From Gammaproteobacteria bacterium (GTDB lineage Bacteria; Pseudomonadota; Gammaproteobacteria; Steroidobacterales; Steroidobacteraceae), in contig JASHPX010000352.1 in NCBI GenBank assembly GCA_030037905.1, positions 1-45,722 on the forward strand: DNA of 45,722 bases, in the 5' to 3' direction. Each line of letters begins with the position of its first letter. Position 1 is the first letter of the stretch. Made by a program: the position numbers and the translations under genes. The notes beneath the pieces are model-generated. The model had not been told where the DNA came from, did no database searches, and saw only the letters and a list, made by a program, of their open reading frames with translations. Below are positions 13,230 to 45,722 of the stretch, piece after piece.

Positions 13230-13421
13230 CGAGAGCTCACTCGTCACGCTCGAGCCATGCTCTTTCCACGGTCGCACGCCGTCCTGTGCTCAGACGTTAG
13301 CCTGGAGGACCTCGCGCGAAAGGAACCAGGCCCATACCTGGCTCGGCAGGCTTGGGTTCTCTCATGATGCCGCGTCGGTCGCAAGCCGGCTGCTCAACGC
13401 CATTGAAATTAGGCGCTCATA

Positions 13422-13470
13422 TATGCTATATAAAGCATTCAATCTATTATGAATAGCTTTATATAGCATA
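13422..13470. promoter_or_regulatory. 15-bp perfect inverted repeat TATGCTATATAAAGC...GCTTTATATAGCATA, putative HipB operator
   Basis: 13422-13436 and 13456-13470; the right arm ends on the A of the HTH gene ATG. Confidence 0.8.
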
Positions 13471-13814
13471 TGGCGCGCACAAGAACCCGGCTTCTGAGCT
13501 CTCCGCCTTACCCCGTTGAGACCGCTCTGCGTCGATTGGGGTCGAACCTGCGAACGGCACGGCTGGCACGTAACCTGACGCTCGACGAAGTCGCCGAGAA
13601 AATCGGAACCGGCAGGCGCGCCGTGGCAGACGCCGAGAGGGGGCGTCCGGGAACTGCGGCCGCAGTGTATCTGGCACTGCTTTGGACCTACGACCTGATG
13701 AGCCCCGTATTGCAGATCGCGGACCCCGCCGCCGATGCGGTGGGCCTCGCCTCGGTCGCACGCCGCGAGCGCGCCCGCACGAGCACCTCCGCGGGTCTCG
13801 ACAACGACTTCTAA
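13470..13814 (+). CDS. HTH regulator, HipB-like antitoxin (module 2)
   Basis: LRTARLARNLTLDEVAEKIGTGRRAVADAERGRPG. Confidence 0.8.
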   Translation: MARTRTRLLSSPPYPVETALRRLGSNLRTARLARNLTLDEVAEKIGTGRRAVADAERGRPGTAAAVYLALLWTYDLMSPVLQIADPAADAVGLASVARRERARTSTSAGLDNDF

Positions 13815-30471: not shown

Positions 30472-30909
30472 TCAACCGAGCGCGAGCGGGTTACGAGTCG
30501 CGAGCGCTCCGAAACGGCTGAAATCCCGGTCAACGGTGAACAACTCCCGTACATTCGAGTAGATACAAAGCGCAGCGATCCGCGCATCGTGGATATGCGG
30601 ACCCGTGACCTTCGTCTTCGCCAGCAGCTGCGCCAGTGTCATCCAATACCCGTCTCCTTCCGCCAGTAGTACCACGCTCGGTGACTCCAGCCACGCCTGA
30701 ACTTGCTCGATGGCTCTGGTGAGAGGGCTCGGAGGCGCGTAGATGCGCTGGTGAGTCACGATCGCCAGAAATTCGTGAATGCATGGCCACGGCACAGCCC
30801 ACGTGCCCGCTCCTTCGGCCAACTCGCGCATACACTGCGCGGCGCGCTCGTGCCACGGGCTATCGCGACGATGGGCGTACACCAGGATATTCGTATCGAC
30901 CGCGATCAA
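30472..30909 (-). CDS. PIN-domain (VapC-like) toxin
   Basis: MIAVDTNILVYAHRRDSPWHERA...VTGPHIHDARIAALC...LFTVDRDFSRF. Confidence 0.9.
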   Translation of the reverse strand: MIAVDTNILVYAHRRDSPWHERAAQCMRELAEGAGTWAVPWPCIHEFLAIVTHQRIYAPPSPLTRAIEQVQAWLESPSVVLLAEGDGYWMTLAQLLAKTKVTGPHIHDARIAALCIYSNVRELFTVDRDFSRFGALATRNPLALG

Positions 30910-31151
30910 CCGCCGTGTCCCTCGTAACTCAACGCACGCAGTTGATCCCAGGACAGCCCGGCGGCCTCCGGTCGTAGCCCCTGTCCCGAAAACGAGGCGT
31001 CGCGCAACCTGAAGCGACGCACGACCTTGCGCTCGGCAAGCGCGAGCTTGAGCCCCCGTTCCACCAGCTCGCGGATCGTCAAGTTCTCCTTGCGTGCCAC
31101 GGCCTTCGCTTCTTTGAGGAGTGGGTCTGCTATATCGAGAGTGGTCTTCAT
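30906..31151 (-). CDS. VapB-like antitoxin
   Basis: MKTTLDIADPLLKEAKAVARKENLTIRELVERGL; ATGA overlap with the toxin. Confidence 0.88.
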   Translation of the reverse strand: MKTTLDIADPLLKEAKAVARKENLTIRELVERGLKLALAERKVVRRFRLRDASFSGQGLRPEAAGLSWDQLRALSYEGHGG

Positions 31152-31188: not shown

Positions 31189-31279
31189 AATCGTCGTCGG
31201 TCCTCGTGTCGTTCGTGCCTGTCTCGTTGGTCCTGCCCGGACGCCTCGCGATCACGCGGGCACGCGAACGAGGCCGGAC

Positions 31280-31354
31280 CCATGAGGGGGCATGGGGGCA
31301 TGTGGCGTGTTACATCTGACGTAACACGCCACATGCCCCCATGCCCCCTCGTGG
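31280..31354. terminator. Long palindrome (about 37-bp arms) with core TACATCTGACGTA
   Basis: 31280-31316 pairs with 31318-31354 with about 2 mismatches; just downstream of a serine hydrolase stop. Confidence 0.85.
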
Positions 31355-31363
31355 CAGAGGCCC

Positions 31364-32590
31364 TCAGTCGTCGATCGCCTGATAGACCAGCGTGCGAAAG
31401 TCCGCGTTGATCCCGGCGATGGTCGGCGCGAAGCTCAGGCGCTGCACCATGAGAATCGCCGTCAGATCCTCGCTCGGATCCGAGTACCAGGAGCTACCGT
31501 AGACCCCATCCCAGCCAAAGCCTCCCGGGCTCATCCACGGGCTGTCGCGGCGCGTAACCACCGCGAGGCCGAAGCCCCAGCCGCGGCTGTCCCAGAACCC
31601 CGGGAAGAACCCCGGGCTCAGCGCCTTCTGCTGCGCGGTCAGCTGATCGGTGATCATCGCCTGCACCGTCGGCCGTGCGAGGATGCGTCGCGTCCCGAAG
31701 CGCCCGTGCTCGAGCATCATGCGCGCGAAGGCCGCGTAATCGTCCATTGTAGAGACCAGGCCGCTGCCACCGCTCGCAAAGGGCGGCGGGCGACTCCACT
31801 GACTGTCGCGCGCATCGTCGAACAGCCGCGGCGGATGACCCGGCCCTCCGTCCTGGTAGCAGCTGGCGAAGCGCTCGAGCTTCGCGGCCGGGACCCAGAA
31901 ACCGGTGTCACGCATGCCGAGCGGCTCGAACAGCCGCTCGCGCAGCAAGTCCTCGAACGACTGTCCCGCCAGCCGCGCAATGAGCACGCCGAGCACCTCC
32001 GAGCCCATGTGATATACCCAGCGCTCGCCGGGCTGATACATCAGCGGCAGGCTCCCCAGGCGCCGCAGCCACTCGTCGGGAGTGTGCGGCGGCCAGGGCT
32101 TGCGACCCCAGAGCTGCAGCTGTGTGATCGCGCGCTGGATCGGGTAGCGGTCGGGTGGCTCCAGCAGCATGCCGAACCCCAGGCGCAGGGTCAGCAGATC
32201 GCGCAGCGTCAGGGCGCGCTCGGCGGGCACGGTATCCTCGAGCGCTGCGTCGATGCGCCGGAGCACGCGCCGCGCCGCGAGCTCCGGCAACCAGGGGTCG
32301 AGGGGCTCGTCGAGTCCGATCCTGCCCTCCTCCACCAGCATCATGGCAGCGGCGGCCGTGACCGGCTTGGTCATGGAGGCAATGCGAAACAGGGTATCGC
32401 GCTGTATCGGATCGCGCCGCTCGCGATCCTGCCAGCCGAGGGTCTCGACGTGCGTCGCGCCGCGCCGGTTGATGAGCGCGGCCACGCCGACCACCTCGCC
32501 GCGTTCCACGTAGCGCTCGAGTCCGGCGCGCAGCCGTGCAAGCCGCGCCTCGGACAACCCTGCCGCGCTCAGTGCAGTCTGCCCTGCCAT
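31364..32590 (-). CDS. Serine hydrolase (beta-lactamase class C family)
   Basis: RIASMTKPVTAAAAMMLVEEG; YHMGSEVLG; start MAGQTALSAAG. Confidence 0.9.
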   Translation of the reverse strand: MAGQTALSAAGLSEARLARLRAGLERYVERGEVVGVAALINRRGATHVETLGWQDRERRDPIQRDTLFRIASMTKPVTAAAAMMLVEEGRIGLDEPLDPWLPELAARRVLRRIDAALEDTVPAERALTLRDLLTLRLGFGMLLEPPDRYPIQRAITQLQLWGRKPWPPHTPDEWLRRLGSLPLMYQPGERWVYHMGSEVLGVLIARLAGQSFEDLLRERLFEPLGMRDTGFWVPAAKLERFASCYQDGGPGHPPRLFDDARDSQWSRPPPFASGGSGLVSTMDDYAAFARMMLEHGRFGTRRILARPTVQAMITDQLTAQQKALSPGFFPGFWDSRGWGFGLAVVTRRDSPWMSPGGFGWDGVYGSSWYSDPSEDLTAILMVQRLSFAPTIAGINADFRTLVYQAIDD

Positions 32591-34473
32591 CTCTGCCTCT
32601 CCTGCGCTGCCGCGGCCGCTGCCGCCTCCCTCGGTGGCGCCGCATCGGCCAGGAAGCCTCCGGACTGCCGCCGCCAAAGCTGTGCGTACAACCCTCCGGC
32701 CACGAGCAGCTGCGCGTGCGTGCCCATCTCGCAGATGCGCCCGCGGTTCAGGACGATGAGCCGATCCATGCGTGCGATCGTCGACAGCCGGTGCGCGATC
32801 GCGATCACCGTCCGGCCCTGCATGAGTGCGTCGAGCTGTCCCTGGATCGCCGCTTCGGCCTCCGAATCCAGCGCCGAGGTGGCCTCATCGAGCACCAGGA
32901 TCGGCGCGTTCTTCAGCACCACGCGTGCGATGGCGATGCGCTGGCGCTGTCCGCCGGAGAGCTTCACACCACGCTCACCGACATGCGCCTCATAGCCGCA
33001 GCGGCCGAGCCAGTCCTCCAGGCCCAGGATGAATTCATGCGCCTCGGCACGCCGCGCCGCCTCCTCGATCATGTCCTGGCTCGCATCGGGCCGGCCGTAA
33101 CGTATGTTGTCACGCACTGATCGGTGCAGCAGCGCCGTGTCCTGCGTGACCATCGCGATCTGCCGGCGCAGATTCTCCTGCAGGACCGTGGCGATATCCT
33201 GTCCATCGATGAGGATGCGCCCGCGCGCCGGCTCGTGGAAGCGCAGCAGCAGATTCACCAGCGTCGATTTGCCCGCGCCGGACGGCCCGACGATTCCAAC
33301 GCGCTCGCCTGGCGCGATGGCCAGATCGATGCCGTGCAATACCGGCACGCGCCGGTCGCGGCCATAGTCGAAGTGAATGTCCTCGAAGCGGATCGCTCCC
33401 TGCGGTACGGCCAGCGCCACTGCACCCGGCGCGTCGGGCATCTGCCGCGTGACCGCTATCGAGCGCATGCCATCCTGCACGACGCCGACGTTCTCGAAGA
33501 TGCTGGTGACGTTCGCGGCGACCCAGCCCGCCATGTTGGCGATCTGCCAGGCCATCGGCAGCGCGGTCGCGACCGCGCCCACGGCGATGTGACCTGCGCG
33601 ATACAGCAGCACTGCGACCGCGCCGGTGGCCACGACCAGCGCGGCGTTCAGCACCGCCAGCAGCATCGTGAAGCCGGTGGCCAGCCGCGTCTGATTGCGA
33701 AACGCGCCGGTATGCTGATCGACCGCCTCGCGCACGAATGCGTCCTCGTCCTGGGCGCGCGCGAACAGCTTCACGGTGAGGATGTTGGTGTAGCTGTCCA
33801 CGACTCGCCCGGTGAGCGCCGAGCGCGCCTCGGAGATCGCGCGCGAGCGCTCGCGCAGCCGCGGCACGAACGCGACCAGCAGCAGTGCGTACACGCCGAA
33901 CCAGCCGAGGATCGGCAGTGCCAGCTGCCAGCTCATCGCCGAGAGCAGCGCGACGCTGCTGCCCCCGTAGACGATGATGTACCAGACGGCGTTGGTGGCG
34001 GACACCATGCTCTCGCGTAGCGCCGGCCCCGTCTGCATCACACGGTTGGCGATGCGTCCCGCGAAATCATTCTGAAAGAAGGTCCAGCTCTGGCGCACCA
34101 CGTGCCAGTGGCTCTGCCAGCGGATCATGTTGGTGACGCCGGGATTGATGATCTGGTTGGTGACCAGGTACTGCGCAAACAGCGCCAGCGGCCGGCCGAC
34201 CAGGAACACCAATGCCATCGCCAGAAGCTGCGTACCCGCGGCCGCCAGCAACTGTGCCGGGCGATAGGCGGACACCAGCGTCACCACTCGCCCGATGAAC
34301 AGCGGAATGGTGACATCCAGCGCCGCGACCGCAAGTCCGGTGGCGAACAGCGCGACGATCAGTCCACGGATCTGGCGCAGGTAGTGTGCGTAGAACGCAC
34401 CGAGTCCGTGGCTCGGCGGCTCGGAAGGCGTGCGCGCGGTGGGCTCGAACAGCCCTTCGACCCACCTCAGCAT
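32569..34473 (-). CDS. ABC transporter, fused permease/ATPase
   Basis: Walker A GPSGAGKST, LSGGQRQRIAIARV, LVLDEATSALD. Confidence 0.93.
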   Translation of the reverse strand: MLRWVEGLFEPTARTPSEPPSHGLGAFYAHYLRQIRGLIVALFATGLAVAALDVTIPLFIGRVVTLVSAYRPAQLLAAAGTQLLAMALVFLVGRPLALFAQYLVTNQIINPGVTNMIRWQSHWHVVRQSWTFFQNDFAGRIANRVMQTGPALRESMVSATNAVWYIIVYGGSSVALLSAMSWQLALPILGWFGVYALLLVAFVPRLRERSRAISEARSALTGRVVDSYTNILTVKLFARAQDEDAFVREAVDQHTGAFRNQTRLATGFTMLLAVLNAALVVATGAVAVLLYRAGHIAVGAVATALPMAWQIANMAGWVAANVTSIFENVGVVQDGMRSIAVTRQMPDAPGAVALAVPQGAIRFEDIHFDYGRDRRVPVLHGIDLAIAPGERVGIVGPSGAGKSTLVNLLLRFHEPARGRILIDGQDIATVLQENLRRQIAMVTQDTALLHRSVRDNIRYGRPDASQDMIEEAARRAEAHEFILGLEDWLGRCGYEAHVGERGVKLSGGQRQRIAIARVVLKNAPILVLDEATSALDSEAEAAIQGQLDALMQGRTVIAIAHRLSTIARMDRLIVLNRGRICEMGTHAQLLVAGGLYAQLWRRQSGGFLADAAPPREAAAAAAAQERQRWQGRLH

Positions 34474-37667: not shown

Positions 37668-38387
37668 GTGAGCGACACGCAGTCCCAGTCGCAGGCGGCT
37701 GATCCCGGCAGCGAGCAGGCGCTCACCTGCCTGCGCTCGGTGCTGACCGCCGAGGAGAAACTCGAGGCCTGGGCGATTCAACTGCGTGTCTTCGCACTGC
37801 TGCGCCGGCGATTGATCGTGGGTGCGACCAGCGGCCGGCTGCTGGCCGTGTCCCGGCCCCTCATCGGAGGATTCGATCTGACCGATATCCGCTGGCAGGA
37901 CTTGCGCGAGGTGCACATCCACGTCGGCGTGCTGGCCGCGCGCCTGCAGGTGAGTGCCTTCAGCAGCCCGGACCTCGCTTCGGCTTCCACGCAGCTGCGT
38001 ACGCTGGTATTCGACGGGCTGCGCAAGGAGCAGGCGCAGGCGCTCTATCGCATCTGCCAGGCGAACGATCAGGCCTGGCGCGAGAAGCGCCGCATACGTG
38101 AGCTCGAGGAGCTGCGCGCGCGTGCCGGCGGCATTCAGCTCGGCATCCTGGGCGGCGGCGGCAACGTCACCGGCAGCGGCGCTGCTGGCATCATGCCGGG
38201 TGCCGGAGCCGGCGCGGCCAGCGGGGCCGCAAGCGCGGGCGCGCCAGGCAGCGGTGCTGCAAGCGGCCAGCCCGCCGGTGAGGACGCCACGACACGCCTG
38301 CGCAACGCGCGCTCCATGCTCGAGGCTGGCCTGATCTCGGACGCCGAGTACGAGGCCATCAAGGCGCGCATCATCAACAGCGTCTAG
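37668..38387 (+). CDS. PH-like plus C-terminal SHOCT-domain protein
   Basis: C-terminal TTRLRNARSMLEAGLISDAEYEAIKARIINSV (SHOCT); RRRLIVGATSGRLLAVSRPLIGGFDLTDIRWQDLREVHI (bPH-like); GTG start. Confidence 0.75.
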   Translation: MSDTQSQSQAADPGSEQALTCLRSVLTAEEKLEAWAIQLRVFALLRRRLIVGATSGRLLAVSRPLIGGFDLTDIRWQDLREVHIHVGVLAARLQVSAFSSPDLASASTQLRTLVFDGLRKEQAQALYRICQANDQAWREKRRIRELEELRARAGGIQLGILGGGGNVTGSGAAGIMPGAGAGAASGAASAGAPGSGAASGQPAGEDATTRLRNARSMLEAGLISDAEYEAIKARIINSV

Positions 38388-38549
38388 CCGCCCCGCCAGG
38401 CAGTAGCACAGCAGCGCTCGTCGAAGACAACCCGCGTGGATATGGTGACCCACTGGGCGAATACATCTGATGTATTCGCCCAGTGGGTCACCATATCTAC
38501 GCGGGATTCCTACGTCATGCGCTGCTGTGCTACTGCCTAGCGGGGCGGC
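38387..38549. terminator. 163-bp near-perfect palindrome with core TACATCTGATGTA between convergent genes
   Basis: 81-nt arms around a central T at 38468, no indels, about 9 mismatches. Confidence 0.9.
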
Positions 38550-39334
38550 ATGCGCAGCGCCCCGTCGAGCCGGATCGCCGCGGCGTTCAGGTAGCTGTTT
38601 CGGCAGATCTCCAGCACCAACGAAGCGAATTCCTCCGGGCGTCCAGTTCGCTGCGGGAACGGTACTGCGGCCGCCAGAGCCGCGCGCGCGGCCTGTGGTG
38701 CGCTCGCCAGCAGCGGTGTCTCGAACACGCCGGGCAGAATGGCATTGATGCGCACGCCCTCCGCCGCGAGGTCACGCGCCACCGGCACGCTCAGCGCCAC
38801 GATGCCTCCCTTGGAAGCGGCATAGGCGGCCTGACCGATCTGTCCCTCCTCGGCGGCCACCGAGGCGGTGTTGACGACGACGCCCCGCTCCCCACCGGCG
38901 TCGGGCGCATTGGTGAGCATGCCGGCCGCCGAGAGCGCGAGGCAACGGAACGTACCGACGAGGTTGACGCTCACGACGCGTTCGAACAGATCGATCGGGA
39001 AAGGCCTGACGGCCCCATCGATGGCCCCGGCTTCGTCGCGCCGGCGCGATGCGGTCCTCGCCCCCGCGAGGATGCCGGCACAGTTAACCAGGATGCGCTC
39101 CTGTGCGTGCGCTGCTCGTGCCGCCGCGAATCCCTGCTCGACGCTCGCCTGCGAGGTCACGTCCACGCGTACGAACAGCGCGTCGATCTCGGCGGCGAGC
39201 GCCTCACCGCGAGCGGCGTCGGTGTCGAACAGCGCCACGCGCACACCGGCCTCCCTGAGCAGGCGTGCCGTCGCTGCCCCGAGTCCCGAGGCACCACCGG
39301 TCACCACCGCCGCCACCGAGGCGTCGAGGCGCAT
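38537..39334 (-). CDS. SDR family oxidoreductase (3-hydroxyacyl-CoA dehydrogenase type-2-like)
   Basis: VTGGASGLGAATARLL, NCAGI, YAASKGGIVALSVPVARDLAAEGVRINAILPGVFETPLL. Confidence 0.9.
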   Translation of the reverse strand: MRLDASVAAVVTGGASGLGAATARLLREAGVRVALFDTDAARGEALAAEIDALFVRVDVTSQASVEQGFAAARAAHAQERILVNCAGILAGARTASRRRDEAGAIDGAVRPFPIDLFERVVSVNLVGTFRCLALSAAGMLTNAPDAGGERGVVVNTASVAAEEGQIGQAAYAASKGGIVALSVPVARDLAAEGVRINAILPGVFETPLLASAPQAARAALAAAVPFPQRTGRPEEFASLVLEICRNSYLNAAAIRLDGALRMPPR

Positions 39335-39377
39335 GCAAATTCTTCGATGGAACTCGCGGGCCTGGGACCCGGCAGCT

Positions 39378-41114
39378 CTAGGCCGCGTCCCCAGCGCGAC
39401 GCAGCAGCGGCCCGCGATTTTCGGCCGCCACACCCGCCGCGGTCGCCGGGGACGCTGCCGGCAGAGCATTCAGCAACGCAGCGAGCTTCTGCGCATCCAA
39501 TGGCTTGACCCAGTGCGAGTCGAAGCCGGCCTCCTGCGAGCGACGGCGGTCGGCGTCCTGTCCCCAACCGGTCACTGCCACGAGCGTGATGGTGTGACCC
39601 CAGTCCTCGGTACGGATGCGGCGGGCGACCTCGTAGCCATCCAGTCCCGGCATGCCGATGTCGAGCATTGCCAGATCGGGGCGCGTCCGGGTTGCCATCG
39701 CCAGCGCCTCCAGGCCGTCCGCGGCCTGGTAGACCTCGTGGCCGTCCAGCTGCAGCAGCTGCGCGAGGCTCTCGAGCGCATCGCGGTTGTCGTCGGCGAT
39801 CAGGATGCGCCGCAGTGCACCCTCCTTCGTGACAGCCAGAGCGGGCTTGACGGGCGCCGTGGCCGCATCGCTCGGCATCCGCGGGAAACGCACCGTGAAC
39901 TCACTGCCTTTGCCGACGCCGTCGCTGTGTGCCTCGACGTGTCCGCCGTGCAGCTCCACCAGGCGCTTGACCAGCGCCAGCCCGATCCCCAGGCCAGCCT
40001 GATTGCCCGGCTCGCCACCCGAGGCTTGCGCAAACAGGTTGAAGACCGTCGGGATCAGCTCCGGATCGATACCGATGCCGTTGTCGCGGATGCGGATCTC
40101 CACGTCCTCGCCGCAGCGACCGGCCGTGAGCTCGATGCGCCCGCCGGCGTGCGTGTACTTGACGGCGTTACTGAGCATGTTGCCGACGATCTGGATCAGT
40201 CGCGTCGGATCCCCATCGATGAACAGTGGCTCCTCGGCGACATTCAGCGCCAGCTCGTGCCCCTGACGCGACAGCATCGGCTGCACGGTCTCGAGCGCCC
40301 GTGTCACCACCGTGGAGAGTGGCACCGGCTCGCGCGCCAGATTGATCTTGCCGCGCGTGATGCGCGCCACATCCAGCAGATCATCGATCAGGCGCGTGAG
40401 GTGGCCGAGCTGCCGCTCGATCATGTCGCGCGCCCAGCCGAGCTGGGTCGCGGGCAGCTGCGGCTTGCGCATCAACTGCACCGCGTTGTGAATCGAGGCG
40501 AGCGGATTGCGCAGCTCGTGCGCCAGCATCGCCAGGAACTCGTCCTTGTTGCGGTTGGCCTCTCGTAGCTGCGCGTTCAGCTCCTCCAGTTCGCGGGTCT
40601 TCTCGGCCTGCAGCGTCGAATGCGCCTCGGCCAGCCTTGCGTTGGCCTCCGTGAGGTGTTGGTTGAGCCGCTGCAGCTCGCTCCGCTGGCAGTACAGCTC
40701 CACCAGCACGGCCACCTTGGTCCGCAGGATCGCCGGCACCACCGGTATCGACACGTAGTCCACGGCCCCGAGTGTGTATCCGCGCAGGCGGTCCATCTCG
40801 TTGATATGCACGCCGGTGATGAAGATGATGGGCGTCTTCTCGAAGCGCGGGTGCTCGTGGATCATGCTTGCGACTTCGAAGCCGTCCATTCCCGGCATGT
40901 TCACGTCGAGCAGCACCACGGCGAAGTCGTGGGCCATGAGCCGCTCGAGCGCCTCCCTACCGGAGCGCGCGCTGATGAGGTTGTGCCCGAGCTCGCTCAG
41001 GATCGACTCGTAGGACAGCAGCCGCGCCGGCTGATCGTCCACGAGCAGGATGTTGACCTTTTCGGTGGGTCCGTGCGGCGGCGCCGTCGCCTGGACGGCG
41101 GATTCAGAGCTCAT
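39378..41114 (-). CDS. Hybrid regulator: REC - histidine kinase - REC
   Basis: VNILLVDDQPARL, FLAMLAHELRNPLASIHNAV H-box, C-terminal RRILIADDNRDALESL. Confidence 0.93.
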   Translation of the reverse strand: MSSESAVQATAPPHGPTEKVNILLVDDQPARLLSYESILSELGHNLISARSGREALERLMAHDFAVVLLDVNMPGMDGFEVASMIHEHPRFEKTPIIFITGVHINEMDRLRGYTLGAVDYVSIPVVPAILRTKVAVLVELYCQRSELQRLNQHLTEANARLAEAHSTLQAEKTRELEELNAQLREANRNKDEFLAMLAHELRNPLASIHNAVQLMRKPQLPATQLGWARDMIERQLGHLTRLIDDLLDVARITRGKINLAREPVPLSTVVTRALETVQPMLSRQGHELALNVAEEPLFIDGDPTRLIQIVGNMLSNAVKYTHAGGRIELTAGRCGEDVEIRIRDNGIGIDPELIPTVFNLFAQASGGEPGNQAGLGIGLALVKRLVELHGGHVEAHSDGVGKGSEFTVRFPRMPSDAATAPVKPALAVTKEGALRRILIADDNRDALESLAQLLQLDGHEVYQAADGLEALAMATRTRPDLAMLDIGMPGLDGYEVARRIRTEDWGHTITLVAVTGWGQDADRRRSQEAGFDSHWVKPLDAQKLAALLNALPAASPATAAGVAAENRGPLLRRAGDAA

Positions 41115-41140: not shown

Positions 41141-45722
<4,582 letters not shown>

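Follow-up and report, generated by a model that had tools for sequence, protein, structure and literature searches.

How can palindromes that lie kilobases apart have a common centre and each keep a long, paired stem of its own? The question is raised by the window analysed here, a stretch of 45,722 nt (contig JASHPX010000352.1, GenBank assembly GCA_030037905.1) from a gammaproteobacterium of the Steroidobacteraceae, which carries two such palindromes, one at 31280 and one at 38.4 kb. The reading that we favour, with a probability of about 0.6, is that they belong to a mobile REP-like intergenic palindrome whose arms are kept alike by template switching and whose gain often drags along an inverted copy of a gene end. 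The window's genome is a 4.5-Mb assembly of 403 contigs, 93.5% complete, and all genomes compared with it are metagenome assemblies.

Two palindromes with a common centre

The strongest two inverted repeats found in the window were the 31280 element (I2) and the 38.4-kb element (I1), and their coordinates and neighbouring genes are listed in the table. The long palindrome of the original prediction is real: its 37-nt arms (31280-31316 and 31318-31354) are 95% complementary around a single T (T31317), with a mismatch close to the apex and another close to the base. As predicted, both centres read GGCG-NN(N)-TACATC-T-GAYGTA-NN(N)-CGCC, and both palindromes lie past stop codons, 10 nt away in the case of the 31280 element and between two convergent genes, with stops at 38387(+) and 38537(-), in the case of the 38.4-kb element. 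RNA folding z-scores of the window palindromes are about -11 to -12, and the hairpins are very stable on both strands.

Features of the two palindromes and of the genes beside them (window positions)
Feature	Position	Strand	Basis or remark
vapBC-like pair	30472..31151	-	PIN-domain protein 30472-30909 and small antitoxin-like ORF to about 31151
31280 element, long palindrome	31280..31354	.	inverted repeat I2; held-out covariance model R2
Apex of 31280 element, TACATCTGACGTA	31311..31323	+	same apex in other family members
Beta-lactamase-family (PF00144) gene	31364..32677	-	stop 10 nt from 31280 element
Gene convergent on 38.4-kb element, SHOCT-like C-terminus just under Pfam cut-off	37668..38387	+	
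Outer inverted duplication of 38.4-kb element, left copy	38387..38415	.	97% identity over 29 nt to 38521-38549
Left non-palindromic block of 38.4-kb element, between inner stem and outer inverted duplication	38416..38430	.	partner block 38506-38520
Inner palindrome of 38.4-kb element	38431..38505	.	inverted-repeat search; R2 92.5 bits
Apex of 38.4-kb element, TACATCTGATGTA	38462..38474	+	motif search
Outer inverted duplication of 38.4-kb element, right copy	38521..38549	.	takes in last codons and stop of SDR-family gene (-)
Short-chain dehydrogenase (SDR) gene convergent on 38.4-kb element	38537..39469	-	PF00106, E=2e-39

The 38.4-kb element is a canonical family member (CCCGCGTRGATATGG...GGCGAATACATC-T-GATGTATTCGCC...). 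It spans 38387-38549 with arms of 81 nt (38387-38467 and 38469-38549) that are 89% complementary overall, and arm identity falls to 0.46 at 38-50 nt from the centre. Its left outer copy begins on the final stop-codon base of the left gene and is a mirror copy of the right-hand gene's end.

The 31280 copy is best classed from its sequence as a divergent family member. A covariance model built without it (R2) recovers 31278-31356 with 62.6 bits (E=2e-12). This score is partly generic to long hairpins, because a different-looking long hairpin in a congener (G010) reached 49.5 bits with the first covariance model (R1), and the rest is carried by the exact apex and GGCG/CGCC. The copy has GGCGTGT where the family has GGCGAA, a variant paralleled at L087:2540, L090:2522 and L090:3030 (GGCGTGTACGTC). 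It shows neither a flanking inverted duplication nor a recognisable boundary repeat, and the GTAG motif is absent from it. Of the neighbouring vapBC-like pair, the PIN protein matches PF01850 (E=2e-13), the small ORF gave no match in a Pfam search, and a promoter scan placed a promoter-like site at 31190-31162, between the pair and the palindrome. The vapBC-like segment and the 31280 element are both absent at the orthologous place in a sister genome (L133:11174-11350).

Size, range and anatomy of the family

The proposal of a family depended on the core not being scattered at chance frequency without inverted flanks, and it held, because the 4.5-Mb genome contains the core TACATCTGAYGTA 10 times and a reversed control pattern 0 times, and each of the 10 occurrences lies at the centre of a palindrome whose arms are about 30-80 nt long. 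A common inner arm, CGAATACATC, is present 54 times (control 0). The R1 model, built from the 10 core-bearing elements, gave at least 150 strand-hits at at least 76 places in the same genome, so that the family comprises about 76 elements there. Ten non-palindromic CGAATACATC matches considered as solo half-elements have no arm next to the motif and are apparently chance occurrences. Palindromes of a second set, built on the arm core GGCATCGAGCACGCCAGAAGAGATTC / GGCATCGATCACGCCAGAGGAGATTC, stand at L057:2937 and L093:4857 and are apparently a further subfamily of this genome.

Among 14 congeners, the sister genome G006 (a gammaproteobacterial MAG that includes contig JASHSK010000280) carries about 12 elements and G010 a single doubtful match, and the others have none. 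Outside the genus, the search of 296 genomes gave no convincing element in about 290 genomes of the order, with one weak match (E=8e-5). As judged by these sequence searches, the family is lineage-restricted. A scan for GCGAATACNTCNGANGTATTCGC across genome contigs gave 0 matches in a set outside which the window's own genome may lie. The original prediction had recognised no named family. An Rfam search returned nothing at gathering score (only sub-threshold hairpin-like miRNA matches), and in the literature work on the mechanism and on REPs was found and no description of this palindrome family. Another congener carries a long hairpin of different sequence (GGGTATCCAACCCATCTGACGATGTTCGTC; L131:143, G010 C106).

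Forty-four elements align end to end, with the consensus ACCCGTGTAGATGTGGGGACCCTTCnGGCGAATACGTC-T-GACGTATTCGCCnGAAGGGTCCCCACATCTACGCGGGT. The typical unit is about 115 bp. Its terminal repeat, around CGGCAGCGCnCGaCGTAG, is imperfect; a short block without palindromy separates it from an inner stem of 36 bp, which ends in an apex of 1-6 nt. Within the inner stem, GTAGAT towards the base and GGCGAATAC towards the apex are constant and shared by the arms of most elements, and about 15 bp between them, at positions of about 13-27 from the centre, are variable. The original claim that only the core is shared and the stems are wholly different thus applies to this private block and to the divergent 31280 copy, and was too strong for the remainder of the arms. 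GTAG or GCAG sits about 27-31 nt from the centre, within the stem and not at an unpaired end. Single arms do not fold (116 arms, mean folding z +0.13 relative to shuffles).

The block at about 38-50 nt is non-palindromic and oriented: one ACGTAGGGA (A) side and one GGCGTAGCCA (B) side are found in 9 of the 11 elements that could be classified on both sides. The outer edge is marked on both sides by the imperfect, degenerate CGGCAGCGCnCGaCGTAG consensus, and all 10 exact matches to the boundary motif CAGCGCNYGRCGTAG are at elements. This motif was considered as the end of an unknown IS and rejected, as its exact matches all lie in elements and its one-mismatch matches are near the control count.

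In 47 aligned elements, arm mismatch is 1.2% at 5-13 nt from the centre, 3.5% at 14-25, 7% at 26-32 and 23% at 33-37, and beyond 38 nt it is about 55-60%, near that of unrelated sequence. The climb outward from the apex is significant (Spearman 0.67, p=3e-5) and persists when normalised for site variability (0.58, p=0.002). Different elements differ by 50% at positions 14-25 compared with 1-7% between the arms of one element, so that the predicted pairing of stems that differ between copies is confirmed. Mismatches within arms are mostly transitions (68:18), as they should be if they are recent mutations still to be corrected, and differences between elements are not (5999:7112). The apex itself had been proposed as a conserved functional or seed sequence, and it is not an invariant seed: apex positions 1-4 are often unpaired, arm mismatch reaches 34% and 53% at positions 1 and 3, the poorest pairing within the inner stem, and apices differ by species, the window's genome having CRTCTGAYG and the sister often TACGGGGTGACGTA or TACATCTCCCCGTA. 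The idea that the apex provides a CTG primase start was dropped because the sister-species apices lack CTG.

Gene ends, inverted flanks and the sister species

Gene pairs that hold an element are convergent in 34 of 54 cases compared with 33 of 224 pairs without one (odds ratio 9.8, p=5e-12), and divergent in 2 of 54 compared with 39 of 224 (p=0.009); one simple gene caller was applied to element and control pairs alike, and single assignments may be wrong because it is crude. Element centres are mostly about 30-100 nt from stops. Hairpins may be tolerated at gene 3' ends, where they would probably affect the 3' ends of transcripts arriving from both directions, and to this extent we infer an RNA function, if any.

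The flanks of the elements are themselves inverted copies of each other in many cases. A flanking inverted duplication (local score of at least 28) is present at 46% of elements compared with 2.7% of mismatched flank pairs, and exact inverted words of at least 12 nt at 36% compared with 0.3%. Direct words of at least 7 nt surround 24% of elements (null 15%), and direct target duplications are not in excess. In 29 duplication-bearing elements, identity is 94% in the inner stem, 52% in the 38-50 block (null 48%) and 90% in the outer duplication, which extends over 15-95 nt. Coding sequence is part of some outer duplications, as with the last codons of the SDR gene in the 38.4-kb element. One continuous inverted duplication would not leave a non-palindromic block inside nested palindromy, and this nested anatomy would fit an asymmetric unit being inserted, with snap-back copying from its edge as the next step. 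The original prediction had the arm being copied locally, for example by template switching, which is the explanation that fits best; the locally copied part, however, lies mainly outside the element, as the inverted copy of the flanking gene end.

Most of the sister-genome elements examined stand at orthologous positions, and there the two arms have changed together. In eight alignable pairs between the window's genome and G006, the inner 23 nt hold 45 two-sided, fully compensated changes compared with 17 one-sided ones, and one pair (L126/L067) has a run of five adjacent compensated changes. Covariation among elements amounts to 307 two-sided cells, compared with 87 after shuffling and no more than 46 in slid controls. 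Of the eight orthologous pairs, three to five are clearly closer than paralogues and the rest are indistinguishable from them; replacement of an element by another copy is therefore possible at some sites, since three of the eight pairs are no closer than paralogues. At one locus (L059:2498), the orthologous G006 stretch (L130, about 2500-2600) has a different long palindrome (GGGAGACCGGGGCGGTTATTTCTCCCGATAACCGCCCCCGGTCTCCC), so that one palindrome may give way to an unrelated one at a given gene end.

Presence and absence of elements also differ between species. The clearest case is L051:5799 compared with the sister contig L120, where the empty G006 site reads ...ATGTGGTGACGGCTAC followed directly by GGCTCCAGGTAGGCGTAGCCGTT.... 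In the filled site, the inverted end of the right gene comes directly past the left stop and is followed by the element. The empty counterpart already has an 8-bp inverted repeat, ACGGCTAC/GTAGCCGT, exactly where the copy ends. Elsewhere, L067:5750 and L067:10112 are absent from G011 and L067:3157 is absent from G006. From the sequences, each such difference could be a gain here or a loss in the sister, in either direction. Neither window element was found in the orthologous G006 stretch, which does not provide a clean empty site because the neighbouring genes are rearranged there.

Related repeats, rival explanations and a proposed copying model

Known repeat systems resemble the family in part. 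REPs are dispersed intergenic palindromes found downstream of genes, in convergent or unidirectional gaps (PMC3733652), and the REP/REPIN elements of the RAYT-associated GTAG superfamily are like the present ones in their dispersal, their gene-downstream location and perhaps the GTAG tetramer in the arm. REPs are, however, hairpins of 20-40 bp whose GTAG is terminal and whose stems mostly have 6-9 bp and at most 13, whereas here the stem forms between arms, single arms are unfolded and no Y1 transposase was found: the Y1/RAYT (REP) domain PF01797 had 0 matches in the 93.5%-complete genome, with positive controls detected. CGTC-tagged REPs, for which no dedicated transposase is known, are small palindromes dispersed near gene 3' ends, mostly in inverted dimers, and one such family (Halothiobacillus) lies inside larger palindromes (PMC3733652). 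They have an 8-9 bp stem that starts with A-T pairs beside CGTC, and a 4-5 nt loop; in our family the 36-bp stem between the arms has CGTC at its apex, and the within-arm hairpin is absent. Bacterial MITEs are similar in being about 100 bp, non-coding and foldable, and perhaps in their imperfect terminal inverted repeats, but they differ from the family, which has inverted flank copies instead of an excess of direct target duplications and for which a search with the boundary motif gave no related insertion sequence. As it failed the REP tests of a hairpin per unit and a transposase, the MITE test of direct duplication and the terminator test of a T-tract, the family is filed as a new variant of intergenic palindromic repeat.

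The mutational mechanism that probably shapes the family is already known. Template switching creates and repairs stems and gives multi-base compensated changes (PMC8794818), and quasipalindrome correction of this kind in E. coli, yeast and rRNA genes resembles what is seen here in its multi-base compensated changes and in perfect stems arising in one event (PMC8794818). The arms of the family share their changes in multi-base blocks in the same manner (45 against 17, runs of up to five). Quasipalindrome correction is known as scattered events, whereas in the palindrome family it would recur on dispersed copies and extend into flanking gene ends. Long perfect inverted repeats are also maintained in the mitochondrial genomes of Nematomorpha, as coding palindromes (PMC6649704); these lie within animal mitochondrial coding genes and are not reported as a dispersed, sequence-sharing repeat family.

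Compensated changes could also come from selection on paired RNA or a cruciform plus ordinary mutation. The elements might then be hairpins under selection as RNA or DNA, serving as bidirectional 3'-end protectors or as Rho or RNase III sites, an explanation that accounts for their stability on both strands, their position just past stop codons, the strong preference for convergent genes and the avoidance of divergent gaps. We consider it unlikely, as in stem columns 17-36 two-sided differences exceed one-sided (G-U type) ones by more than 20:1, compensated changes come in blocks of up to five adjacent ones, and structural selection alone leaves the inverted copies of coding gene ends beyond the stem unexplained. 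Canonical intrinsic terminators sharing a loop by chance would likewise stand directly after stop codons, but the stem is far too long (36 bp), arm sequence is common across elements, no T-tract follows the stem (at most 5 T per 8-nt window, usually 2-3) and a terminator scan around 31280 gave 0 matches, which makes this reading very improbable.

Movement by a transposase, as in an ordinary MITE or a REPIN-like element, with arms alike only because each copy is young, seems less probable again than selected hairpins. Dispersed copies, the oriented unit (9/11), presence or absence between sister species and one near-identical copy pair (L011/L049) are what such an element would give. The genome has no IS200/REP-type transposase domain, target duplications are not in excess, and old orthologous copies are seen to keep identical arms. 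The copies are not young relative to one another, because stems differ from the nearest copy by a median of 17% compared with 4% between the arms within a copy. Inverted chimeras are a known artefact and the assembly is fragmented, yet a fold-back origin in library or assembly is scarcely credible: past the elements the contigs continue with unrelated genes, the stems of about 76 loci are different, and at the same loci the independently assembled sister genome has elements with diverged yet paired stems.

Template switching best explains the concerted arms, the polarity from the apex, the private stems and the copying into the flanks, with switching as the agent and the order of the gain steps being what we infer. 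For maintenance, the palindrome would fold when single-stranded and the polymerase would switch template to the opposite arm, so that a mutation in one arm would be either erased or passed to the other. The arms would thus evolve in concert and each locus would drift to a private stem, with the effect greatest near the apex and weakening outward. For gain, a 3' end from a gene terminus may copy an element and then snap back at the boundary repeat, and inverted copying of the gene end would continue until a short inverted repeat permits rejoining; end points of this kind are seen. The snap-back step is suggested by the anatomy and by one clean filled and empty pair (L051:5799). It is conceivable, if doubtful, that this is bacterial mobile DNA in no need of a transposase: replication template switching alone would spread and renew the palindrome, copying both its stem and the end of a host gene, so that hairpin shape and not sequence would be inherited.

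Read as the product of template switching, the family is a natural record of DNA copied back on itself, and shows an arm-copying process able to overwrite neighbouring gene ends. It bears on how long stems retain perfect pairing and on how REP-like repeats that lack a transposase spread. With dozens of independent loci, diverged sister orthologues and empty sites, arm-to-arm copying becomes measurable from sequence in its rate, its polarity and its tract length.

Two other repeats were observed in the window. At 13421-13471, this GC-rich genome has an AT-rich inverted repeat (ATATGCTATATAAAGC; 16 nt, perfect) with a spacer of 19 nt. At 44300-45722, a tandem array with a 276-bp unit (5.2 copies, 85% matches) runs off the window end, and it recurs in contig L133 of the sister genome.
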